Part shown: one piece after another, positions 20,720 through 36,415 of the stretch
Position numbering within the stretch: position 1 is the stretch's first letter
Layout of the letters: each line of letters starts with the position of its first letter
Assembly (NCBI GenBank): GCA_014378705.1
Contig: JACMND010000127.1
Span: 1-39,815, forward strand
DNA: 39,815 nucleotides
Direction of reading: 5' to 3'
DNA from: Pedobacter sp.
Lineage (GTDB): Bacteria; Bacteroidota; Bacteroidia; Sphingobacteriales; Sphingobacteriaceae
Notes under the pieces: generated by a model
Seen by the model: only the letters and a program-made list of their open reading frames with translations
Told to the model about the DNA's origin: nothing
Database searches by the model: none
Translations under genes and position numbers: made by a program

Positions 20720-22126
20720 ATGGAAACAGAAAATCAAACAGCAACATTGGGCGATAAAAAACAACCCATTGCAAACAAACAAAGAATCACGCCATTTTTA
20801 TGGTTTGATGGTAAAGCCGAAGAAGCTGCGGACTTCTATAGCTCAGTTATTAAAAATTGTACGATGTTAAGTACGATGCCCGGTCCCGGAGGTTCAGTCA
20901 TGTCTGCAACTTTCCAGATTAACGGACAAGAATTTATCGCGTTTAACGGCGGGCCGATGTTCAAATTTTCTCCGGCAATATCCTTCTTTCTGCCCTGCCA
21001 AACCGAACAGGAAATTGACGCTTTATGGGCGGAACTTTCCCTGGGTGGAAAAGTTTTGATGGCACTTGATAAATACCCGTTTAGCGAGAAATATGGCTGG
21101 ATTGAAGACAAATTTGGAATTTCGTGGCAACTACTACTTGGCGAACCTGGTCAAAAAATTTCACCTTCTTTCTTATTTGCCGGCCAACATCATGGAAAGG
21201 CTGAAGAGGCCATCCATTTTTACACTTCTATATTTCAAAACTCGGACATTGGCCAAATAGAACGTTACAGCGAAGAAGATAATGACCCAACAGGAACAAT
21301 TATGTATGCGTCGTTTACCCTCGCCGGACAAGAGTTTGCAGCAATGGATAGCGCCATGGATCACGCATTTAATTTCACGCCGGGTATATCGCTGTTTGTG
21401 AAATGCGAAACCCAGCTAGAAATAGATCAATTTTGGAACAGCCTTTCTGAAGCTGGGAAAACGAACAGATGTGGCTGGCTTGAGGATAAATTTGGTGTAT
21501 CATGGCAAATTGTGCCACCTGTTTTGGGAGAAATGCTAAGCGACCCCAATCGCGAAAAAGCAAAAAGAGTAATGGATGCGATGTTAAAAATGGATAAAAT
21601 TATTTTAAAGGATTTAGAACAAGCCTATAATAATGACTCCGAAATTATAGGATCAGAAAATGATCAAAAACCATTGGTTATAAACAGGATTTTTAATCTG
21701 CCTCTAAGTAAGGTTTGGCAGGCGTGGACAGAGTCTGAAAGCATTAAAAAATGGTGGGGACCAAAAGATATTACTTGCCCGTATGCATTTATCGATTTGA
21801 AAGAAGGCGGCAAATACCTAAGTTGTATGCTTTCTCCAAATGGCGATGAATTTTGGACAACCGGTGTATACAAAGAAATAGTTATAAACAAAAAACTGGT
21901 TTGCACCGATAGTTTTTCAGACAAAAATGGAAACGTTGTCCCAGCGTCTGATTATAAGATGCCGGGAAATTGGCCTTTGGAATCGTTTTTGACGGTTACT
22001 TTTGAGGAAACGGAAGGAAAAACAGAAATGCAGTTGCAGCATCAGGGTTTACCGCCCGAAATGCTGGATGACTGCAAAATTGGCTGGGAACAATCATTTG
22101 ATAAATTGGATGAATACGTCAAATAA
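20720..22126 (+). CDS. Triple-domain fusion: two PhnB-like VOC domains plus an AHSA1/SRPBCC domain
   Basis: The 468-aa protein joins three modules normally encoded separately. VOC/PhnB-like domain 1 spans about residues 23-141 (ITPFLWFDGKAEEAADFY to KFGISWQLLLG). VOC domain 2 spans about 147-300 (FLFAGQHHGKAEEAIHFYTS to DKFGVSWQIVPP), and an AHSA1-type domain spans about 318-468 (NRIFNLPLSKVWQAWTESES, WWGPKDITCP). The two VOC halves are clearly paralogous, but domain 2 lacks about 10 residues in the loop before GWxEDKFG. PhnB-like VOC proteins are metal-enzyme-fold proteins often of unknown substrate; AHSA1 domains bind small ligands. The reaction is unknown. Both neighbours belong to the same two families, suggesting one functional cluster. 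Confidence 0.88.
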   Translation: METENQTATLGDKKQPIANKQRITPFLWFDGKAEEAADFYSSVIKNCTMLSTMPGPGGSVMSATFQINGQEFIAFNGGPMFKFSPAISFFLPCQTEQEIDALWAELSLGGKVLMALDKYPFSEKYGWIEDKFGISWQLLLGEPGQKISPSFLFAGQHHGKAEEAIHFYTSIFQNSDIGQIERYSEEDNDPTGTIMYASFTLAGQEFAAMDSAMDHAFNFTPGISLFVKCETQLEIDQFWNSLSEAGKTNRCGWLEDKFGVSWQIVPPVLGEMLSDPNREKAKRVMDAMLKMDKIILKDLEQAYNNDSEIIGSENDQKPLVINRIFNLPLSKVWQAWTESESIKKWWGPKDITCPYAFIDLKEGGKYLSCMLSPNGDEFWTTGVYKEIVINKKLVCTDSFSDKNGNVVPASDYKMPGNWPLESFLTVTFEETEGKTEMQLQHQGLPPEMLDDCKIGWEQSFDKLDEYVK

Positions 22127-22198: not shown

Positions 22199-22594
22199 AT
22201 GTTTAAAAACACTAAAGCGTATAGCAGTTTTTCAGTTGATGATACACAAAAAGCAAAACAATTTTACGGCGACATTCTGGGTCTTGATGTGATCGAAGAT
22301 AAAATGAACACACTCACTTTGCATATTTCAGGTGGAGCAACAATCATCGCTTACCCCAAAGGGGCGGATCATACCCCGGCCAGCTTCACAATTCTTAATT
22401 TTTTAGTAGATGATATTGATAAGGCCGTTAACGAACTTGTCACGAGAGGAGTAACGTTTGAACAGTATAACAACAGCTATTTGCAAACCGACGAAAAAGG
22501 GGTGTTCCGAGGTGTTGACACAGGCCAAGGGCCTAATATCGCCTGGTTTAAGGATCCGGCTGGAAATATTTTATCTGTGCTGGAAGAATCATAA
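22199..22594 (+). CDS. VOC (glyoxalase/bleomycin resistance-like) family protein
   Basis: The 131-aa protein is a complete single VOC unit of two beta-alpha-beta-beta-beta modules: [20 protein letters not shown] opens module one, [20 protein letters not shown] opens module two, and [15 protein letters not shown] closes it with the usual metal-ligand Glu region. It differs from the PhnB-like domains of the upstream fusion and is closer to the general VOC/YaeR-like type. The substrate is unknown. It lies 72 bases after the fusion gene and before a VOC pseudogene. Confidence 0.88.
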
Positions 22595-22682: not shown

Positions 22683-23096
22683 AAGGTAACAATAAACCCC
22701 TAATTAACCTTTAACGGCAATGCCGAAGTTGCGTTTAATTTTTACAAATGAGTTTTTGCCGGAGAATTTATGGGCGAGATTGATAGATTTAAAGAAATGC
22801 CAGACTATGAAAACCTTTCACCTGAAGATGCAAATAAAGGAATGCATGTGGCACATCGTATAGTTAAAGGAACCATACTGATGGCCAGAGACACAATTCC
22901 AACAATGGTTTAGCCTTTTTCTATGGGGACTAACCTTGCAATTTTTACTCAACCTGAAAATGAAGAAGAAGCCAATCGGCTTTTTGATGATCTTTAAGCC
23001 GGGGGATGCATTGCCATGCAATTAGAAAAAGTGTTTTGGACTTCTTTGTTTGATATGTTTACAGATAAATTTAGCTTACAACGGATGTTAAATTAG
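22683..23096 (+). pseudogene. PhnB-like VOC pseudogene with four in-frame stops
   Basis: One continuous frame translates to a PhnB-like VOC protein: LTFNGNAEVAFNFYK, VFAGEF, RFKEMPDYENLSPEDANKG, MHVAHRIVKGTILMARDT, NLAIFTQPENEEEANRLFDD, then AGGCIAMQLEKVFW and LFDMFTDKF. It is interrupted by TAA (22701-22703), TGA (22749-22751), TAG (22911-22913) and TAA (22995-22997), and ends at TAG 23094-23096. The expected ATG is AAG or GTA (22683-22688). No insertion or deletion breaks the 138-codon frame. At three of the four sites a single base change restores the residue usual for the family (Tyr in PYLTF, Ser in YKSVF, Ser in LSAGG). All three stop codons occur, so recoding is unlikely. It is a decaying paralogue of the neighbouring VOC genes. 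Confidence 0.85.
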
Positions 23097-23179
23097 AATA
23101 CATCGCAACTAAACCGATCTGTTTGGGTATGCTTTTGTGTGTTCTGATGAGACGCTAAGCAGAACGAAAAAATCTACTT

Positions 23180-23218
23180 AAAAAATAGAGATGTACCAAG
23201 CATCTCTATTTTTTTTTT
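23180..23218 (+). terminator. Strong intrinsic terminator
   Basis: A long A/T-extended stem centred on ATAGAGATG (23185-23193) and CATCTCTAT (23201-23209), with a 7-base loop, is followed by a run of ten T. It closes the VOC/SRPBCC cluster and lies just before the peptidase gene. Confidence 0.85.
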
Positions 23219-23252
23219 GGCATCTTTAAATTTTTGGGGAGTAAAGCTAAAT

Positions 23253-26143: not shown

Positions 26144-27331
26144 ATGGAACTTCTAAACCCTTTTTTAAAGTACGAAGAAAAATCAATCATTAATCGTTTT
26201 TTCAAGCACTCCGATGTTATAAGCCTTCTCAACAATTTAGATCCTGAAAAATTTTTCTTAACCAATCTAGGTAGTTCGGCTGAAGGACGATCCATAAACC
26301 TTGTCAAATTTGGGATTGGTAAAACTCGAATTTTGTTATGGAGCCAGATGCATGGAGATGAGCCTACAGCGACTATGGCACTGTTTGACCTCTTCAATTT
26401 TTTACAGGATACAGATGAAAGGGACAATCTGCGCAACTCAATTTCTACTAATTGCACTCTTTTTATTCTGCCAATGCTGAATCCGGATGGTGCTGAAATT
26501 TTTACGCGAAGAAATGTCCAGGGAATAGATATAAACAGGGATTTTTTACAAAGACAAACCCCTGAAGGGAAAGTTCTTGCAGCGTGCCGCAATGACGTCA
26601 ATCCTCATTTTGCTTTTAATTTACATGATCAAAGTACGATCTGGTCGGCAGGAAAAAGCGGTAATCCGGCTACCATTTCACTTCTTGCGCCCGCATTCGA
26701 CGTGAACTTATCAGTTAATCCGACACGAGAAAAAGCAATTCAGGTAATTTCATCGATTAATAAAGAACTTCAACAGATAATACCGGATCACGTTGGTAGG
26801 TTTGCTGACGAATATGAACCCAGGGCCTTCGGGGAAAATTTTCAAAAGGCAGGAACGAGCACCATTCTTATTGAGGCCGGAGGATATGCTGATGATGGTG
26901 AAAAGCAATTTATCCGCAAAGTAACCTTTACAGCCATATTGAAAGGTCTGGAAGTTATAGCTTCAAAAGCTTACCTAAACGAAGATGAAACTAATTATTT
27001 TTCCATCCCAAAAAACGAAAAACTACATTTTCAAATATTATTGCGCAACTGTAAATTAAATCACAGAGGAAATTCATACTACGCAGACATAGGTTTGGTA
27101 GCGGTTGAACGGATAAACGAGGATTTAAAGTCAATTTCTATAACTTATATGATAGAAGATATGGGCGATTTGAGCGGCTTTAATGGCTATGAATGGTATG
27201 ATGCATCAGGCTTACAGATTACATTAATAAAACCACTGATTTGTCAGCAAAATGCCGATATAATTATTCAGGACGGCATGACCAACATTTTAACAATTGA
27301 AAACGGCCGGATTACATGTAAAAACTTTTAA
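26144..27331 (+). CDS. M14-type zinc carboxypeptidase family protein
   Basis: The 395-aa protein shows M14 metallopeptidase features. The zinc ligands His70 and Glu73 are in SQMHGDEPTA, the third ligand His161 is in FNLHDQST, NPDGAE and the substrate-binding region DINRDF follow, and the likely catalytic Glu244 is in TILIEAGGY. A C-terminal beta-rich domain of about 100 residues (270-395) is unassigned. No signal peptide is visible, so it is likely cytoplasmic, perhaps acting on cell-wall or small peptides. It lies 56 bases after the S9 peptidase gene on the same strand without a clear terminator, so the two peptidases may be cotranscribed. Confidence 0.9.
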   Translation: MELLNPFLKYEEKSIINRFFKHSDVISLLNNLDPEKFFLTNLGSSAEGRSINLVKFGIGKTRILLWSQMHGDEPTATMALFDLFNFLQDTDERDNLRNSISTNCTLFILPMLNPDGAEIFTRRNVQGIDINRDFLQRQTPEGKVLAACRNDVNPHFAFNLHDQSTIWSAGKSGNPATISLLAPAFDVNLSVNPTREKAIQVISSINKELQQIIPDHVGRFADEYEPRAFGENFQKAGTSTILIEAGGYADDGEKQFIRKVTFTAILKGLEVIASKAYLNEDETNYFSIPKNEKLHFQILLRNCKLNHRGNSYYADIGLVAVERINEDLKSISITYMIEDMGDLSGFNGYEWYDASGLQITLIKPLICQQNADIIIQDGMTNILTIENGRITCKNF

Positions 27332-29859: not shown

Positions 29860-30678
29860 ATGGAAAACGAATTTTCCTTAAAAGACAAAGTAATCGTTGT
29901 AACCGGTGGTACGGGTATTTTAGGCAATTCATTTATTAACGGGATTGCGGAGGCTGGTGCAGCGGTAGCAATTTTAGGAAGAAATGCGGATGTGGCCCAT
30001 CAACGGGCGGCTAGAATAAATAGTAACGGAGGTAAAGCACTGGCGTTGGTTGCCGATGTAATGGACGAAGTACAATTAATCTCCGCAAAGGAATTGGTAT
30101 TAAAAAAATACGGCAAAATAGACGGTTTAGTTAATGCTGCCGGAGGTAACAGCCCGGAAGGTGTTTTATTACCGGATCAGGATCTGTTTGATATGAACCT
30201 TGATGGCATGAAAAAAGTTATGGATCTCAACGTTTGGGGTACCATTAAGCCGACTCAGATATTCGCGGAAGCAATTGTTAAAACTGCAGGATATGGAAGC
30301 ATTGTAAATATTTCTTCCATGAATTCTAAACGGGCCATAACCAGGGTATTGGGTTATAATATGGGAAAAGCAGCGGTAGACTGTTACAATCAATGGTTTG
30401 CTGTTGAGTTAGCACGACGATATGGTGATCACATTCGGATGAACGCCTTGGCTCCGGGGTTCTTTATCACCGAACAAAATAGAAATCTTCTGACCAAACC
30501 CGATGGCGAATTTACAGAAAGAGGAAACCTGGTGATCAATCAAACTCCGTTCAAACGTTTTGGTCATCCGGATGAATTAAAAGGCGCCCTAATTTGGCTT
30601 CTGAGTGATGCTTCTAAATTTGTAACCGGTGCGATGATTTGTGTAGACGGCGGTTTTTCCATTTATGGCGGCGTTTAA
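29860..30678 (+). CDS. uxuB: SDR-type fructuronate reductase (D-mannonate oxidoreductase)
   Basis: The 272-aa short-chain dehydrogenase has the NAD(P)-binding TGGTGILG at 15-22, NAAGG near residue 93, Ser152/Ser153 (NISSMNS), and the Tyr166-Lys170 pair (YNMGK), so the catalytic set is complete. Its position as first gene of the cluster, 2 bases before uxuA, indicates reduction of D-fructuronate to D-mannonate. Unlike the long-chain mannitol-dehydrogenase-type UxuB of E. coli, this is the SDR form also found in Bacillus (YjmF). The C-terminal segment ITEQNRNLL and [12 protein letters not shown] is usual for that group. Substrate is inferred from context; a related hexonate substrate is possible. 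Confidence 0.87.
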
Positions 30679-30680
30679 AG

Positions 30681-31877
30681 ATGAAGGAAAATCAGATAAC
30701 CGGAAAATTTAAAATGTTGCAGACCATGCGTTGGTACGGCCCGATTGACCAGGTTAGTTTATGGGATATTCGGCAGGCTGGTTGCAGCGGCGTGGTATCT
30801 GCCCTGCATCACATCCCAAACGGAGAAGTGTGGCCTGTTGTTGAAATTAAAAAACGGCGGCAGGAAATAGAAGATGCCGGTATGACCTGGGATGTGGTAG
30901 AAAGTGTTCCAGTCCATGAAAATATTAAAACGCGTTCAGGCAATTATAAACTATACATAGATCATTACAAAGCCACCATCCGAAATCTTGCTGATTGCGG
31001 AATTTATACCGTAACATACAATTTTATGCCCGTTTTAGATTGGACACGTACCGATCTGGCATACGTTCTTACCGACCGTTCAAAGGCCTTGCGTTTTGAA
31101 AAAGCAGCTTTGATCGCTTTTGATCTTTATATTCTGAAAAGAGCCGCAGCGAAGACCGATTACACTGCAGAAGAAATGGAACGGGCAAAACTAAAATATC
31201 AGTCCATGTCTGCTCAGGAACTACTTGATCTTGAACGTAATATAATTGCCGGTTTGCCGGGAAGTGAAGAATCTTTTACCGTAGAGAATTTTAAAAAGGC
31301 ATTGAGTAAATATGACGGTGTTACTGCTTCCGATCTTCATGATAATTTGATTTATTTTTTACAACAGATCATTCCGATAGCTGAAGAGTGCAAGATATTA
31401 ATGGCGATACATCCGGATGACCCACCTTACGGGATCTTAGGTTTACCACGAATACTTAGTACCGCTGTTGATTTTGAAAAGATAGTTAAGGCAGTCCCTT
31501 CTTTAAACAATGGCCTGTGTTTTTGTACAGGTTCTTTTGGCGTGAGACCGGATAACGATCTCCCGGAAATCATTAGTCAGTTTTCTGACCGGATACACTT
31601 CTTGCATCTCAGGAATACAAAAAGAAATGAGTTTGGGGATTTTTATGAGGATAACCACCTGGAAGGCGATGTAAACATGTACCAGATAGTAAAAGAGTTA
31701 ATAAAAATGATGCATCTTAGAAAGATCTCAATACCGATGCGGCCGGATCATGGCCATCAGATGCTGGATGATCTTAATAAAAAAACCAACCCCGGTTATT
31801 CTGCAATTGGTCGTTTAAAAGGCCTTGCAGAATTAAGAGGATTAGAAATGGGAATAATTGGAAAATATAAAGAATGA
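30681..31877 (+). CDS. uxuA: Mannonate dehydratase
   Basis: The 398-aa enzyme dehydrates D-mannonate to 2-keto-3-deoxygluconate. Visible family signatures are [20 protein letters not shown] at the start, [15 protein letters not shown], and metal-ligand segments [15 protein letters not shown] (His), [13 protein letters not shown] (Cys), HFLHLRNT (His) and MRPDHGHQM (Asp). The length fits UxuA. An upstream in-frame start at 30639 would overlap uxuB, so the ATG at 30681, just past the uxuB stop, is chosen. Its own stop overlaps the uxaC ATG as ATGA, consistent with coupled translation. Confidence 0.95.
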
Positions 31878-33304
31878 ATCTTGAAAAAACAGGCTCAACG
31901 TTTCTAAACCCAGATTTTTTGCTCTATACAAATCAGGCTAAAAATTTATATCACCGGTATGCAGCGGATCTTCCCATAATTGATTACCACAATCACTTAC
32001 CTGCGGATGAAATCGCGTCAAATAAAAAATTTCATAGCCTTACGGAGATTTGGCTGAAAGGGGATCATTATAAGTGGCGGGCCATGCGGGCATTTGGCAT
32101 ATCCGAGCAATTCATCACCGGAGTGGCAAGCGACGAAGAAAAATTTTTTCAATGGGCTAACATGGTTCCTTATACCATTCGTAACCCTTTGTTTCACTGG
32201 ACTCAAATGGAATTATTAAATCCATTCGAGGTAAAAAAATATTTGAATAAAGATTCAGCCAGAGAGATATATACGCATTGCAATGACCTTTTGCAGCAAG
32301 ACCGCTTTTCAACACGATCATTATTAACACATTTTAAAGTACAAATGGTGGGCACCACTGATGATCCCTGTGACGATTTGGCCGGGCATCGACAACTGGC
32401 AAGTGAAGAAAATAGATTTAAAGTTTTTCCAACTTTTCGCCCAGACAAGATTTTAAATATTTCTGATACCGAGGCCTGGTTTTCTTACCTAAACCGGCTT
32501 GAGAAGGTTTCAGGCAAAACCATTTCTGATATATCCGGATTACTTTCAACCTTAGAATCAAGGGTTGAATATTTTCATCAAAATGGTTGCCAAATTGCCG
32601 ATCATGGATTATCTAACATGCCTGGCCATACTGATTTTTCTATTCAGTTAGAACTAGAATTCACTGATTTTGTAACAAATCGTGCAGTATCAAAAAAGTT
32701 TTCATCCCCAGATCAATTCACCGGATATATATTGATGGAGCTTTGCCGAATGTATCATACAAAAGGCTGGGTGCAGCAGTTTCATTTGGGTGCCATTCGC
32801 AATAACAATTCAAAAATGTATAATGTGATTGGCGCTGACGCTGGTTTTGACTCAATCGGCGACTTTAAACAGGCTCAAAACCTCTCTTATTTTTTAGGTA
32901 AACTAACCGAAACAGATCAATTAGGTAAAACCATACTTTATAATCTAAACCCCTCTGATAATGAGGTTTTTACAGCCATGGCAGGAAACTTTAATGACGG
33001 GCAAATAGCTGGCAAAATTCAATACGGAAGTGGCTGGTGGTTTCTTGATCAAAAAGACGGTATTGAAAAACAGCTTAATACGTTATCAAACCTAGGGCTC
33101 ATCAGTACATTTATCGGCATGATCACCGATTCAAGAAGTTTTCTTTCTTATTCCCGGCATGAATACTTTCGGCGTATTTTATGCAACCTATTTGGAAATG
33201 AAATGAAAAAGGGCGAATTACCGGATGACGAAAAATGGATCGGAAAGATTATCCGGGATATCTGCTACTACAACGCGGAACGCTACTTCAATTTTACTTT
33301 ATAG
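31874..33304 (+). CDS. uxaC: Glucuronate (uronate) isomerase
   Basis: The 476-aa enzyme converts D-glucuronate to D-fructuronate (and galacturonate to tagaturonate). The amidohydrolase-like fold shows the metal motif His39-Asn-His41 in DYHNHLP, then [39 protein letters not shown] and [12 protein letters not shown]. Length and motifs match UxaC. The gene begins by ATGA overlap with uxuA and is followed after 77 bases by kdgK. With uxuB, uxuA, kdgK and eda it gives the full glucuronate branch; no altronate branch (uxaA, uxaB) is seen, so glucuronate is the likely substrate. Confidence 0.96.
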
Positions 33305-33381
33305 AATGTATCTACAGATGAAAACGTCTTTTTCAAAAAATACAATCAACATTCGGTACTTCATACTCAATATTCCCATTA

Positions 33382-34386
33382 ATGGATAAAGTAGTATGTT
33401 TTGGAGAGATTTTACTGCGGTTTACTCTTAATAATACCTGGCTCGAAGATTTAAATATTCCGGTTTTTGCAGGAGGAACGGAGGCCAATGTGGCTTTTGC
33501 ACTTTCCAAATGGAAAATTCCGGTGAGCTATGTCACCTCCGCACCTAACAACTTTCTTGCTGACCAGATGCTTGCATTTTTAGGTAGTAAAGGAATTGAA
33601 ACTTCATTTGTCCACCGTTCAGGAGACCGCATTGGCACTTACTACCTTCCTATTGGAGCAGATCTTAAAAACTCCGGGGTTATTTATGATCGCCAACATT
33701 CTTCGTTTTGGGATTTAAAACCCGGAATGATTAACTGGGAAAATGTTTTAGAAGGGGCAGATTGGTTTCATTTCAGTGCGGTTTGTCCGGCTTTAAATCC
33801 GGATTTGGCTAATGTCTGCCTTGAAGCTTTACAAGCCGCCCGGTTAAAAAATATACTGATTTCTGTTGATCTGAATTACCGTTCAAAGCTTTGGCAATAT
33901 GGTAAAGAACCATTTGAAATTATGCCGGAACTTGTTCAATACTGTGATCTGGTGATGGGCAACATCTGGGCAGCCAATAAAATGTTAAACATTCCTTTAG
34001 AGCAACATTTGCAAAAAAAAGAGCGGAAAGGATACCAGCAACAAGCCAGATTAACTTCAGAATTGATCGTCAAGAATTTTCCGCAATGTAAAATTGTAGC
34101 GAACACCTTTCGATTCAGCAACGAAAACCAGGTAAATTATTACGCAGAACTTTATAACGATCAAAAGTTATACAGTTCCGCAGAATATCGTACAGACCAA
34201 ATAATAGATCAGGTTGGAAGCGGCGACTGTTTTATGGCGGGCTTGATCTATGGATATAAGCATAAATTGGATCAGCAAAGGATAATTGACTTTGCTACCG
34301 CAGCAGCGTTTCAAAAACTTTTTATAAAGGGCGATGCGATCACTAAAAATGCTGAGGAAATTAAATTGTCTATAAATAAACTATGA
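33382..34386 (+). CDS. kdgK: 2-Keto-3-deoxygluconate kinase, PfkB family
   Basis: The 334-aa sugar kinase phosphorylates KDG to KDPG with ATP. PfkB cues are the start VVCFGEILLRFT, the substrate loop GGTEANVAFALSKW, the substrate-contact region DLNYRSKLW, and the ATP-binding/catalytic signature QVGSGDCFMAGLIYG with catalytic Asp282. It sits between uxaC and eda, exactly where the pathway requires it. The stop overlaps the eda ATG as ATGA. The 77-base gap before it is the longest within the operon and could hold a secondary promoter, though no clear box is visible. Confidence 0.93.
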   Translation: MDKVVCFGEILLRFTLNNTWLEDLNIPVFAGGTEANVAFALSKWKIPVSYVTSAPNNFLADQMLAFLGSKGIETSFVHRSGDRIGTYYLPIGADLKNSGVIYDRQHSSFWDLKPGMINWENVLEGADWFHFSAVCPALNPDLANVCLEALQAARLKNILISVDLNYRSKLWQYGKEPFEIMPELVQYCDLVMGNIWAANKMLNIPLEQHLQKKERKGYQQQARLTSELIVKNFPQCKIVANTFRFSNENQVNYYAELYNDQKLYSSAEYRTDQIIDQVGSGDCFMAGLIYGYKHKLDQQRIIDFATAAAFQKLFIKGDAITKNAEEIKLSINKL

Positions 34387-35057
34387 GCTCAAGAGATACA
34401 ACCTTAAAACTGTTAAAATCTCAGGCCTTGTTGCCGTTGTTTTATCACGACAGTGATTTGATCAGCATTCAAATTGTAAAAGCCATATATAAAGGTGGCG
34501 GTAGATTAATTGAATATACCAATCGCGGCAGCAATGCTTTAAAAAACTTTTCTACTTTAAGAAAGCTGGTTAATGATGAACTTCCCGGAATGGAGCTGGG
34601 TGTGGGAACGATCCGCACATTAAAGGATGCCGAAAGTTTTGTTGATGCCGGCGCAGATTTCGTTGTTTGCCCAGTAATCAATAAAGAAATTGCCAACCTT
34701 ATTCATCAGCACCGCTTACTTTGGATTCCCGGTTGCATAACCCCAACCGAAATAGACGCCGCCGAACAAGCAGGTGCATCATTAGTTAAAATATTTCCGG
34801 GGAATCTGCTCGGCCCTTCCTATCTATTAGCTATTAAAGAAATTTTTCCTGATTTATTATTCATGCCTACCGGTGGAGTAGAACCTACAATAGAAAACCT
34901 TAAAAGCTGGTTTGAGGCCGGGGTGTTTGCTGTAGGATTGGGAAGTAAGCTCATCAACCACGAATGTATAATAGCTGAACAATATGAGTTACTTGAAAAG
35001 AGAACCCACGACCTTCTTGCTTTAATCAATACCATAAAACTCAGCGGTAATGTATGA
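34383..35057 (+). CDS. eda: KDPG/KHG aldolase
   Basis: The 224-aa class I aldolase cleaves 2-keto-3-deoxy-6-phosphogluconate to pyruvate and glyceraldehyde-3-phosphate. The Schiff-base lysine is Lys136 in SLVKIFPG, the catalytic Glu44 and Arg48 are in IEYTNRG, and the phosphate-binding region is FMPTGGVEPTIENL. It completes hexuronate breakdown into glycolysis. Both ends are coupled by ATGA overlaps: its start to the stop of kdgK and its stop to the MFS transporter start. Confidence 0.96.
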   Translation: MSSRDTTLKLLKSQALLPLFYHDSDLISIQIVKAIYKGGGRLIEYTNRGSNALKNFSTLRKLVNDELPGMELGVGTIRTLKDAESFVDAGADFVVCPVINKEIANLIHQHRLLWIPGCITPTEIDAAEQAGASLVKIFPGNLLGPSYLLAIKEIFPDLLFMPTGGVEPTIENLKSWFEAGVFAVGLGSKLINHECIIAEQYELLEKRTHDLLALINTIKLSGNV

Positions 35058-36415
35058 GCAATAAAATCGGTAAATACAGGTTTACAATATGTGCGCTTCT
35101 ATTCTTTGCCACTACAATAAACTATCTGGACCGGCAGGTTTTAAGCTTGCTCCAACCACTGCTTGCAGAAGAATTTGGCTGGACGAACACCGATTATGCT
35201 AATATAGCAGCCTCATTTCAGTTTGTATACGCCATATCCTTGCTATTTGCCGGAAGGTTTATTGATCGTATCGGAACAAAATGGGGATTTGCCATTGCTT
35301 TAATTATATGGTCGTTCGGAGCTATTATACATGCGTATGCCGAAGAACTTGGTGCTTATTTTATGCCTCTGGTGGTATTAATAGGATTTACAACTTTTTC
35401 TGTTTCAGTATTGGGATTTATTATTGCACGGGCTGTATTGGCTTTTGGAGAAGCAGGTAATTTTCCGGCCGCCATCAAAGCTACCGCCGAATATTTTCCT
35501 AAAAAGGAACGTTCCTTCGCGACCGGTATTTTTAATTCGGGTACCAATGTAGGTGCTATAATAGCTCCGATTTCAGTTCCATGGATAGCTTACCATTGGG
35601 GTTGGCCCTTCGCTTTTGTCACAATCGGCGCTTTTGGCTTTATTTGGCTAATTTTCTGGCTTATTTTTTACGAGATCCCATTTAAACAAAAGCGACTGAG
35701 TCAGGCAGAAAGAGATTTTATTGAAAGCGATTCAGAGCCAATTTTACAAGAAGATTTAACTAAGGCCACAGAAAAAGTCTCCTGGTTTAAACTCCTTAAA
35801 TTTAAGCAAACGTGGTCATTTGCATTTGGTAAATTCATGACTGACGGCGTTTGGTGGTTCTTCCTTTTCTGGCTTCCTGCATATCTTAAAGCCCAATATG
35901 GAATGAGCATAACCGATATTCAAATACCCTTGGTGGTACTTTACAGCATGACCATGTTTGGCAGTATCGGTGGCGGTTATTTTCCAACTTACTTCATTAA
36001 CAAAGGCATGAAACCTTATGATGGAAGAATGAAAGCCATGCTGATTATTGCAATCTTTCCATTGGTAGTGCTGGCGGCTCAGCCTTTGGGCGTTCATAGT
36101 TTTTGGTTTCCGGTCATATTAATCGGAATTGGTGCCTCGGCCCACCAAGCCTGGTCGGCAAATATATTTACAACCGTTTCTGATATGTTCCCAAAAAAAA
36201 CAGTGGCATCTGTAACCGGTATTGGTGGCATGGCCGGTGGACTTGGTGGTGTACTGATGACCAAATTAGGTGGTTATCTTTTTGACCATTACAAAGCCTT
36301 AGGACACATTGAAACAGGCTACACCATTATGTTTACCATTTGTGCCATATCGTATATTATTGCCTGGTTGGTTATGAAATCATTGGTACCAGAAATGAAA
36401 TTGGTTAAAGTTTAG
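35054..36415 (+). CDS. exuT: MFS transporter, hexuronate (ExuT-like) family
   Basis: The 453-aa inner membrane protein has the 12-helix layout of the major facilitator superfamily. The anion:cation symporter pattern is visible: TINYLDRQVLSLLQPLLAEE in helix 1, the loop DRIGTKWG, the RAVLAFGEAGNFPAAIKATA region, and GTNVGAIIAPISVPWIAYHWGW. These match the ACS family that includes ExuT and glucarate/galactonate transporters. As last gene of the hexuronate operon, coupled by ATGA to eda, it is the likely importer of glucuronate or galacturonate. The exact substrate is inferred from context. Confidence 0.9.
   Translation: MSNKIGKYRFTICALLFFATTINYLDRQVLSLLQPLLAEEFGWTNTDYANIAASFQFVYAISLLFAGRFIDRIGTKWGFAIALIIWSFGAIIHAYAEELGAYFMPLVVLIGFTTFSVSVLGFIIARAVLAFGEAGNFPAAIKATAEYFPKKERSFATGIFNSGTNVGAIIAPISVPWIAYHWGWPFAFVTIGAFGFIWLIFWLIFYEIPFKQKRLSQAERDFIESDSEPILQEDLTKATEKVSWFKLLKFKQTWSFAFGKFMTDGVWWFFLFWLPAYLKAQYGMSITDIQIPLVVLYSMTMFGSIGGGYFPTYFINKGMKPYDGRMKAMLIIAIFPLVVLAAQPLGVHSFWFPVILIGIGASAHQAWSANIFTTVSDMFPKKTVASVTGIGGMAGGLGGVLMTKLGGYLFDHYKALGHIETGYTIMFTICAISYIIAWLVMKSLVPEMKLVKV

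Follow-up and report, generated by a model that had tools for sequence, protein, structure and literature searches.

A relict PhnB/YjdN-like VOC gene in Pedobacter sp. with several in-frame stops, roughly compatible with ordinary neutral decay

Lesions of bacterial pseudogenes have been counted in Salmonella, where, in a published survey, 133 of 346 single-lesion pseudogenes carried point lesions (131 premature stops and two start changes), and more than one lesion was present in 32 of 378 pseudogenes (PMC2916853). The intact counterparts of the locus described here are the single-domain PhnB/YjdN-like VOC proteins (PF06983; PRK10148.1/NF007537), and our literature search for PhnB or VOC pseudogenes found none. 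Here we describe such a relict in a stretch of 39,815 nucleotides from Pedobacter sp. (contig JACMND010000127.1; hereafter the window). Combining profile searches, synteny and a codon model that dates the loss from the remaining sense codons, we conclude with high confidence that it is an ordinary unitary pseudogene, i.e. a dispensable PhnB/YjdN-like VOC gene that lost its function and then drifted neutrally.

A preliminary description of the locus had named a PhnB-like VOC pseudogene disabled by substitutions, with four in-frame stops (TAA, TGA, TAG, TAA), a lost start and no frameshift, and had taken its inactivation to be recent or mutation-biased. Translation confirmed the four stops and the lost start within a full-length single-domain PhnB/YjdN-like VOC frame on the forward strand, and the substitution-type character of the damage is supported for the secure lesions. 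The features of the locus are as follows:

22683..23096, + strand: what remains of a single-domain PhnB/YjdN-like VOC gene, without a start and with four in-frame stops; the closing TAG is probably premature too
22701..22703, + strand: in-frame TAA, where 17/17 intact relatives compared have Tyr
22749..22751, + strand: in-frame TGA, where 14/17 intact relatives compared have Ser
22911..22913, + strand: in-frame TAG, at a position variable among intact relatives
22995..22997, + strand: in-frame TAA, where 15/17 intact relatives compared have Ser or Ala
23094..23096, + strand: closing TAG; 17 intact relatives extend 5-12 codons beyond it
22199..22594, + strand: intact neighbour coding for a 131-aa VOC protein (Pfam PF00903, a family other than the relict's)
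20720..22126, + strand: intact neighbour; its 468-aa product joins two PF06983 VOC domains to an AHSA1 domain and shares 63.4% identity with that of its syntenic counterpart in genome G012
23180..23218, + strand: terminator-like hairpin of 15 pairs (23180-23214) followed by a T run, located 3' of the relict

The relict matches Pfam PF06983 over residues 4-113 (E 6.3e-6, 27.1 bits against a cut-off of 24) and the NCBIfam YjdN profile with E 4.1e-14 (53.2 bits, below the curated cut-off of 122). Its best intact relative, from another species of the genus, is 53% identical over residues 3-137 (E 4.5e-40). The frame has four stops per 137 codons, as against 5 to 17 in the remaining frames of the same stretch. 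Judged from these matches, its PhnB-like character is beyond chance. The codon at 22683-22685 is not a start codon, and two intact relatives read as DNA have ATG at the same place. The disabled frame thus has intact homologues in other genomes, as is expected of a pseudogene.

Alignment with the 17 intact relatives required no internal frameshift, and a variable loop of the relict may contain a whole-codon insertion or deletion. The closing TAG we take to be probably a lesion too, because all 17 intact relatives run 5-12 codons further; it may be a fifth nonsense change or the consequence of a one-base shift. The last codons in an alternative reading looked PhnB-like by eye, yet a profile gave no preference to such a frameshifted tail (150.4 bits for the in-frame and 149.4 bits for the shifted reading). 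The earlier statement that there is no frameshift therefore holds for the inside of the relict and is unproven for its last codons, since both tail readings score alike.

The gene order in this part of the window is an AHSA1 gene, the 468-aa fusion, the 131-aa VOC gene, the relict, the hairpin and an S9 peptidase gene, and the frames of the three genes 5' of the relict are all open. Among 20 genomes of the genus, the fusion has a near whole-length match (residues 8-465) elsewhere only in G012; its two-VOC part is matched in G005, G019, G004 and G009. The hairpin has a folding energy of -17.2 kcal/mol for 23170-23222 (z -5.43), and it is absent from the hits of a consensus terminator scan; the consensus promoter and terminator scan gave no excess over shuffled sequences (13 versus 12.2 and 3 versus 3.2, respectively), and a tRNA scan of the window found none. 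A functional RNA at the relict was considered and rejected, as its predicted structure was no better than that of shuffles (z 0.07). Farther downstream lies a gene (26144-27331) whose product we presume to resemble M14 carboxypeptidases, followed at 30639-36415 by what we take to be a hexuronate catabolism-like cluster (mannonate dehydratase-like, uronate isomerase-like, sugar kinase, aldolase and transporter genes).

Comparison across the genus places an intact orthologue at the syntenic position. In G012 (contig C89) an intact PhnB gene stands between the orthologue of the 468-aa fusion and that of the 26144-27331 gene (57.9% identical), in the same order as in the window; the relict is 53.4% identical to this PhnB gene across 133 sense positions. 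The syntenic stretch of G012 (L003 1-3408) lacks relatives of both the 131-aa VOC gene and the S9 peptidase gene; a relative of the former sits on another contig (C90). G005 has an intact PhnB gene as well, placed after a relative of the 131-aa VOC gene. A survey of the genus, with one genome per species, recovered a match to the relict's protein in 10 of 20 genomes, the window's own counted; among the 17 with a completeness of 90% or more and a contamination of 5% or less, nine had a match and eight had none. Half of the genus genomes lack a match, so the genus can apparently do without the gene, which, from this distribution, seems to come and go.

Judging by two further damaged copies, loss of the gene is also seen elsewhere in the genus. 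G015 has a PhnB relict (L034 990-1236) in a related VOC/AHSA1 cluster, preceded by a VOC gene and followed directly by an 86-aa open frame and then by a relative of the 131-aa VOC gene. It is more decayed than the relict of the window: a protein-query search recovered it with three stops (E 7.5e-8), and its profile match covers model positions 16 to 85 of 143 with two stops inside or just after the match. It was apparently broken by a frameshifting deletion, its 5' end being placed in another frame by eye only. The second is a truncated PhnB copy in G014, a 68% complete genome, with a 5' piece matching residues 3-44. No close copy of the window's relict itself was found among 301 family genomes (one per species, its own included), the best of the matches listed outside its own genome being 81% over 106 query bases.

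To date the loss we used a codon model with three site classes, fitted to 17 intact relatives. These are the nearer ones, picked by eye, of 36 intact relatives out of 37 loci (L011 being left out), aligned without long fusion proteins, weak hits and relicts; the model set comprises these 17 and the window's relict. The branch of the relict starts under constraint and ends in a neutral phase that permits stops, and only its sense codons are used, conditioned on being sense. Of its 138 codons 136 were kept and the start column was then omitted, so that 131 of 135 columns are sense codons. The homologues behind these tests are all at most about 53% identical to the relict.

A model without a neutral phase is rejected by the sense codons of the relict (2ΔlnL 15.57). 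For the intact controls the corresponding value was 0-1.23 in 17/17, with the limit that these controls, unlike the relict, helped to fix the model parameters, which biases them toward low values. The length of the neutral phase, estimated under five mutation spectra, is 0.08-0.10 substitutions per site with a 95% range of 0.03-0.16, corresponding at the estimates to about 33-41 neutral substitutions in 414 bases, with about 12 at the lower 95% limit. The relict has changed at 8 of 32 conserved family positions; for the 36 intact relatives, which themselves served to define these positions, the number is 0-6 of 33. The relict's branch in the protein tree is 0.66 long, versus 0.30 for its nearest relative. 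The remaining codons thus show relaxed constraint. Such a neutral phase argues against both a very recent loss and readthrough maintained by selection, and together with the altered conserved positions it weakens the earlier suggestion that the inactivation is recent.

Against this age the number of stops can be judged. At the estimated age 1.2-1.9 stops are expected and four are seen, with a probability of four or more of 0.07-0.17 depending on the spectrum; for the four stops together with the lost start it is 0.04-0.11. Both counts omit the closing TAG, and adding it lowers the probability, to 0.025-0.08 when it is taken as a fifth stop and to 0.02-0.05 for all six possible lesions (five stops and the start). 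As our literature search for mutation-accumulation data on the ratio of indels to substitutions in this group found nothing, a range of ratios was assumed, and the probability of seeing no indel is 0.30-0.33 and 0.15-0.17 at ratios of 0.03 and 0.05, and 0.03-0.04 and 0.004-0.006 at ratios of 0.1 and 0.2. The excess of stops is mild, in a case selected for its look, and the set of lesions is mildly lopsided.

Could the stops nevertheless come from a burst or from a stop-favouring mutational process? The four stops and the lost start exceed the roughly 1.4-2.2 such lesions expected (stops plus three times the neutral distance), six lesions would be more unusual still, and no internal indel is present in the relict; at the rate of the Salmonella survey (PMC2916853), five point lesions out of five would have a probability of about 0.8%, if lesions are independent and the spectrum is alike. 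However, depending on the lesions counted, the probability under ordinary decay lies between 0.02 and 0.17 even before allowing for the selection of the case by its look, AT-rich spectra lift the expected stops to 1.8-1.9 unless transitions dominate, and a recent event has to accommodate the neutral changes already implied by the sense codons. We therefore regard a nonsense-biased or recent inactivation as quite unlikely, and the earlier reading of mutation bias is weakened: a special mutation process is unnecessary, and a weak one may have acted. Very unlikely, in our view, is that the excess is genuine and arose from selection to silence a still transcribed gene, in which nonsense changes and loss of the start would shorten a useless product.

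Two further readings keep the gene alive. Errors of sequencing or assembly in a living gene are conceivable in an assembly of 209 contigs, and a published account describes false internal stops arising from low-quality reads (PMC11017572). However, the 414 bases hold five sure lesions and one probable one, whereas the frames next to them are open, and missense changes affect conserved positions too, so that random errors would need to cluster in one small gene; this makes the explanation highly improbable. Continued translation past the stops, by recoding or readthrough, would suit a frame that is unbroken and recognisable along its whole length. It is nonetheless at odds with the presence of TAA, TAG and TGA in the same frame, with the missing start codon and with the neutral drift in the sense codons, which demand a neutral phase, whereas a recoded frame would still be under purifying selection across its stops. 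The nine neighbouring genes checked end on TAA (six) or TAG (three) and none on TGA, so that TGA as a stop rests on prfB, and prfB and prfA are both above the cut-off. We give readthrough almost no credence.

The ordinary pseudogene remains our explanation. A dispensable single-domain PhnB/YjdN-like VOC gene, which closes a VOC/AHSA1 cluster on its 3' side, would have lost its function on the lineage to the window's species, probably late on a long branch. Neutral drift since then, over the distance estimated above, would by itself have yielded the loss of the start, the stops and the missense changes at conserved positions, and we infer that the relict makes no product. The preliminary description had also proposed that intact neighbouring VOC paralogues made the gene redundant. 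The neighbours' frames are indeed open, but redundancy is unproven, because a search of its own genome with the relict's protein at E <= 0.001 returned nothing but the relict, and the neighbouring genes code for VOC proteins of other types; the 468-aa fusion may be a more distant substitute. By itself the relict matters little: it adds another decaying gene to a family whose presence varies within the genus. Its value is that of a worked case in which several stops without an indel turn out to be roughly compatible with neutral decay once the sense codons date the relict.

Set beside the known systems, the relict resembles the PhnB/YjdN-like VOC proteins in matching the YjdN profile over residues 3-137, and differs from them in lacking a start, in its four stops, in the altered conserved positions and in a score below the YjdN cut-off. 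With the multi-lesion pseudogenes of Salmonella (PMC2916853) it shares an intact orthologue elsewhere, several lesions and a loss of constraint, while differing in that its secure lesions are all substitutions, a mildly lopsided mix.
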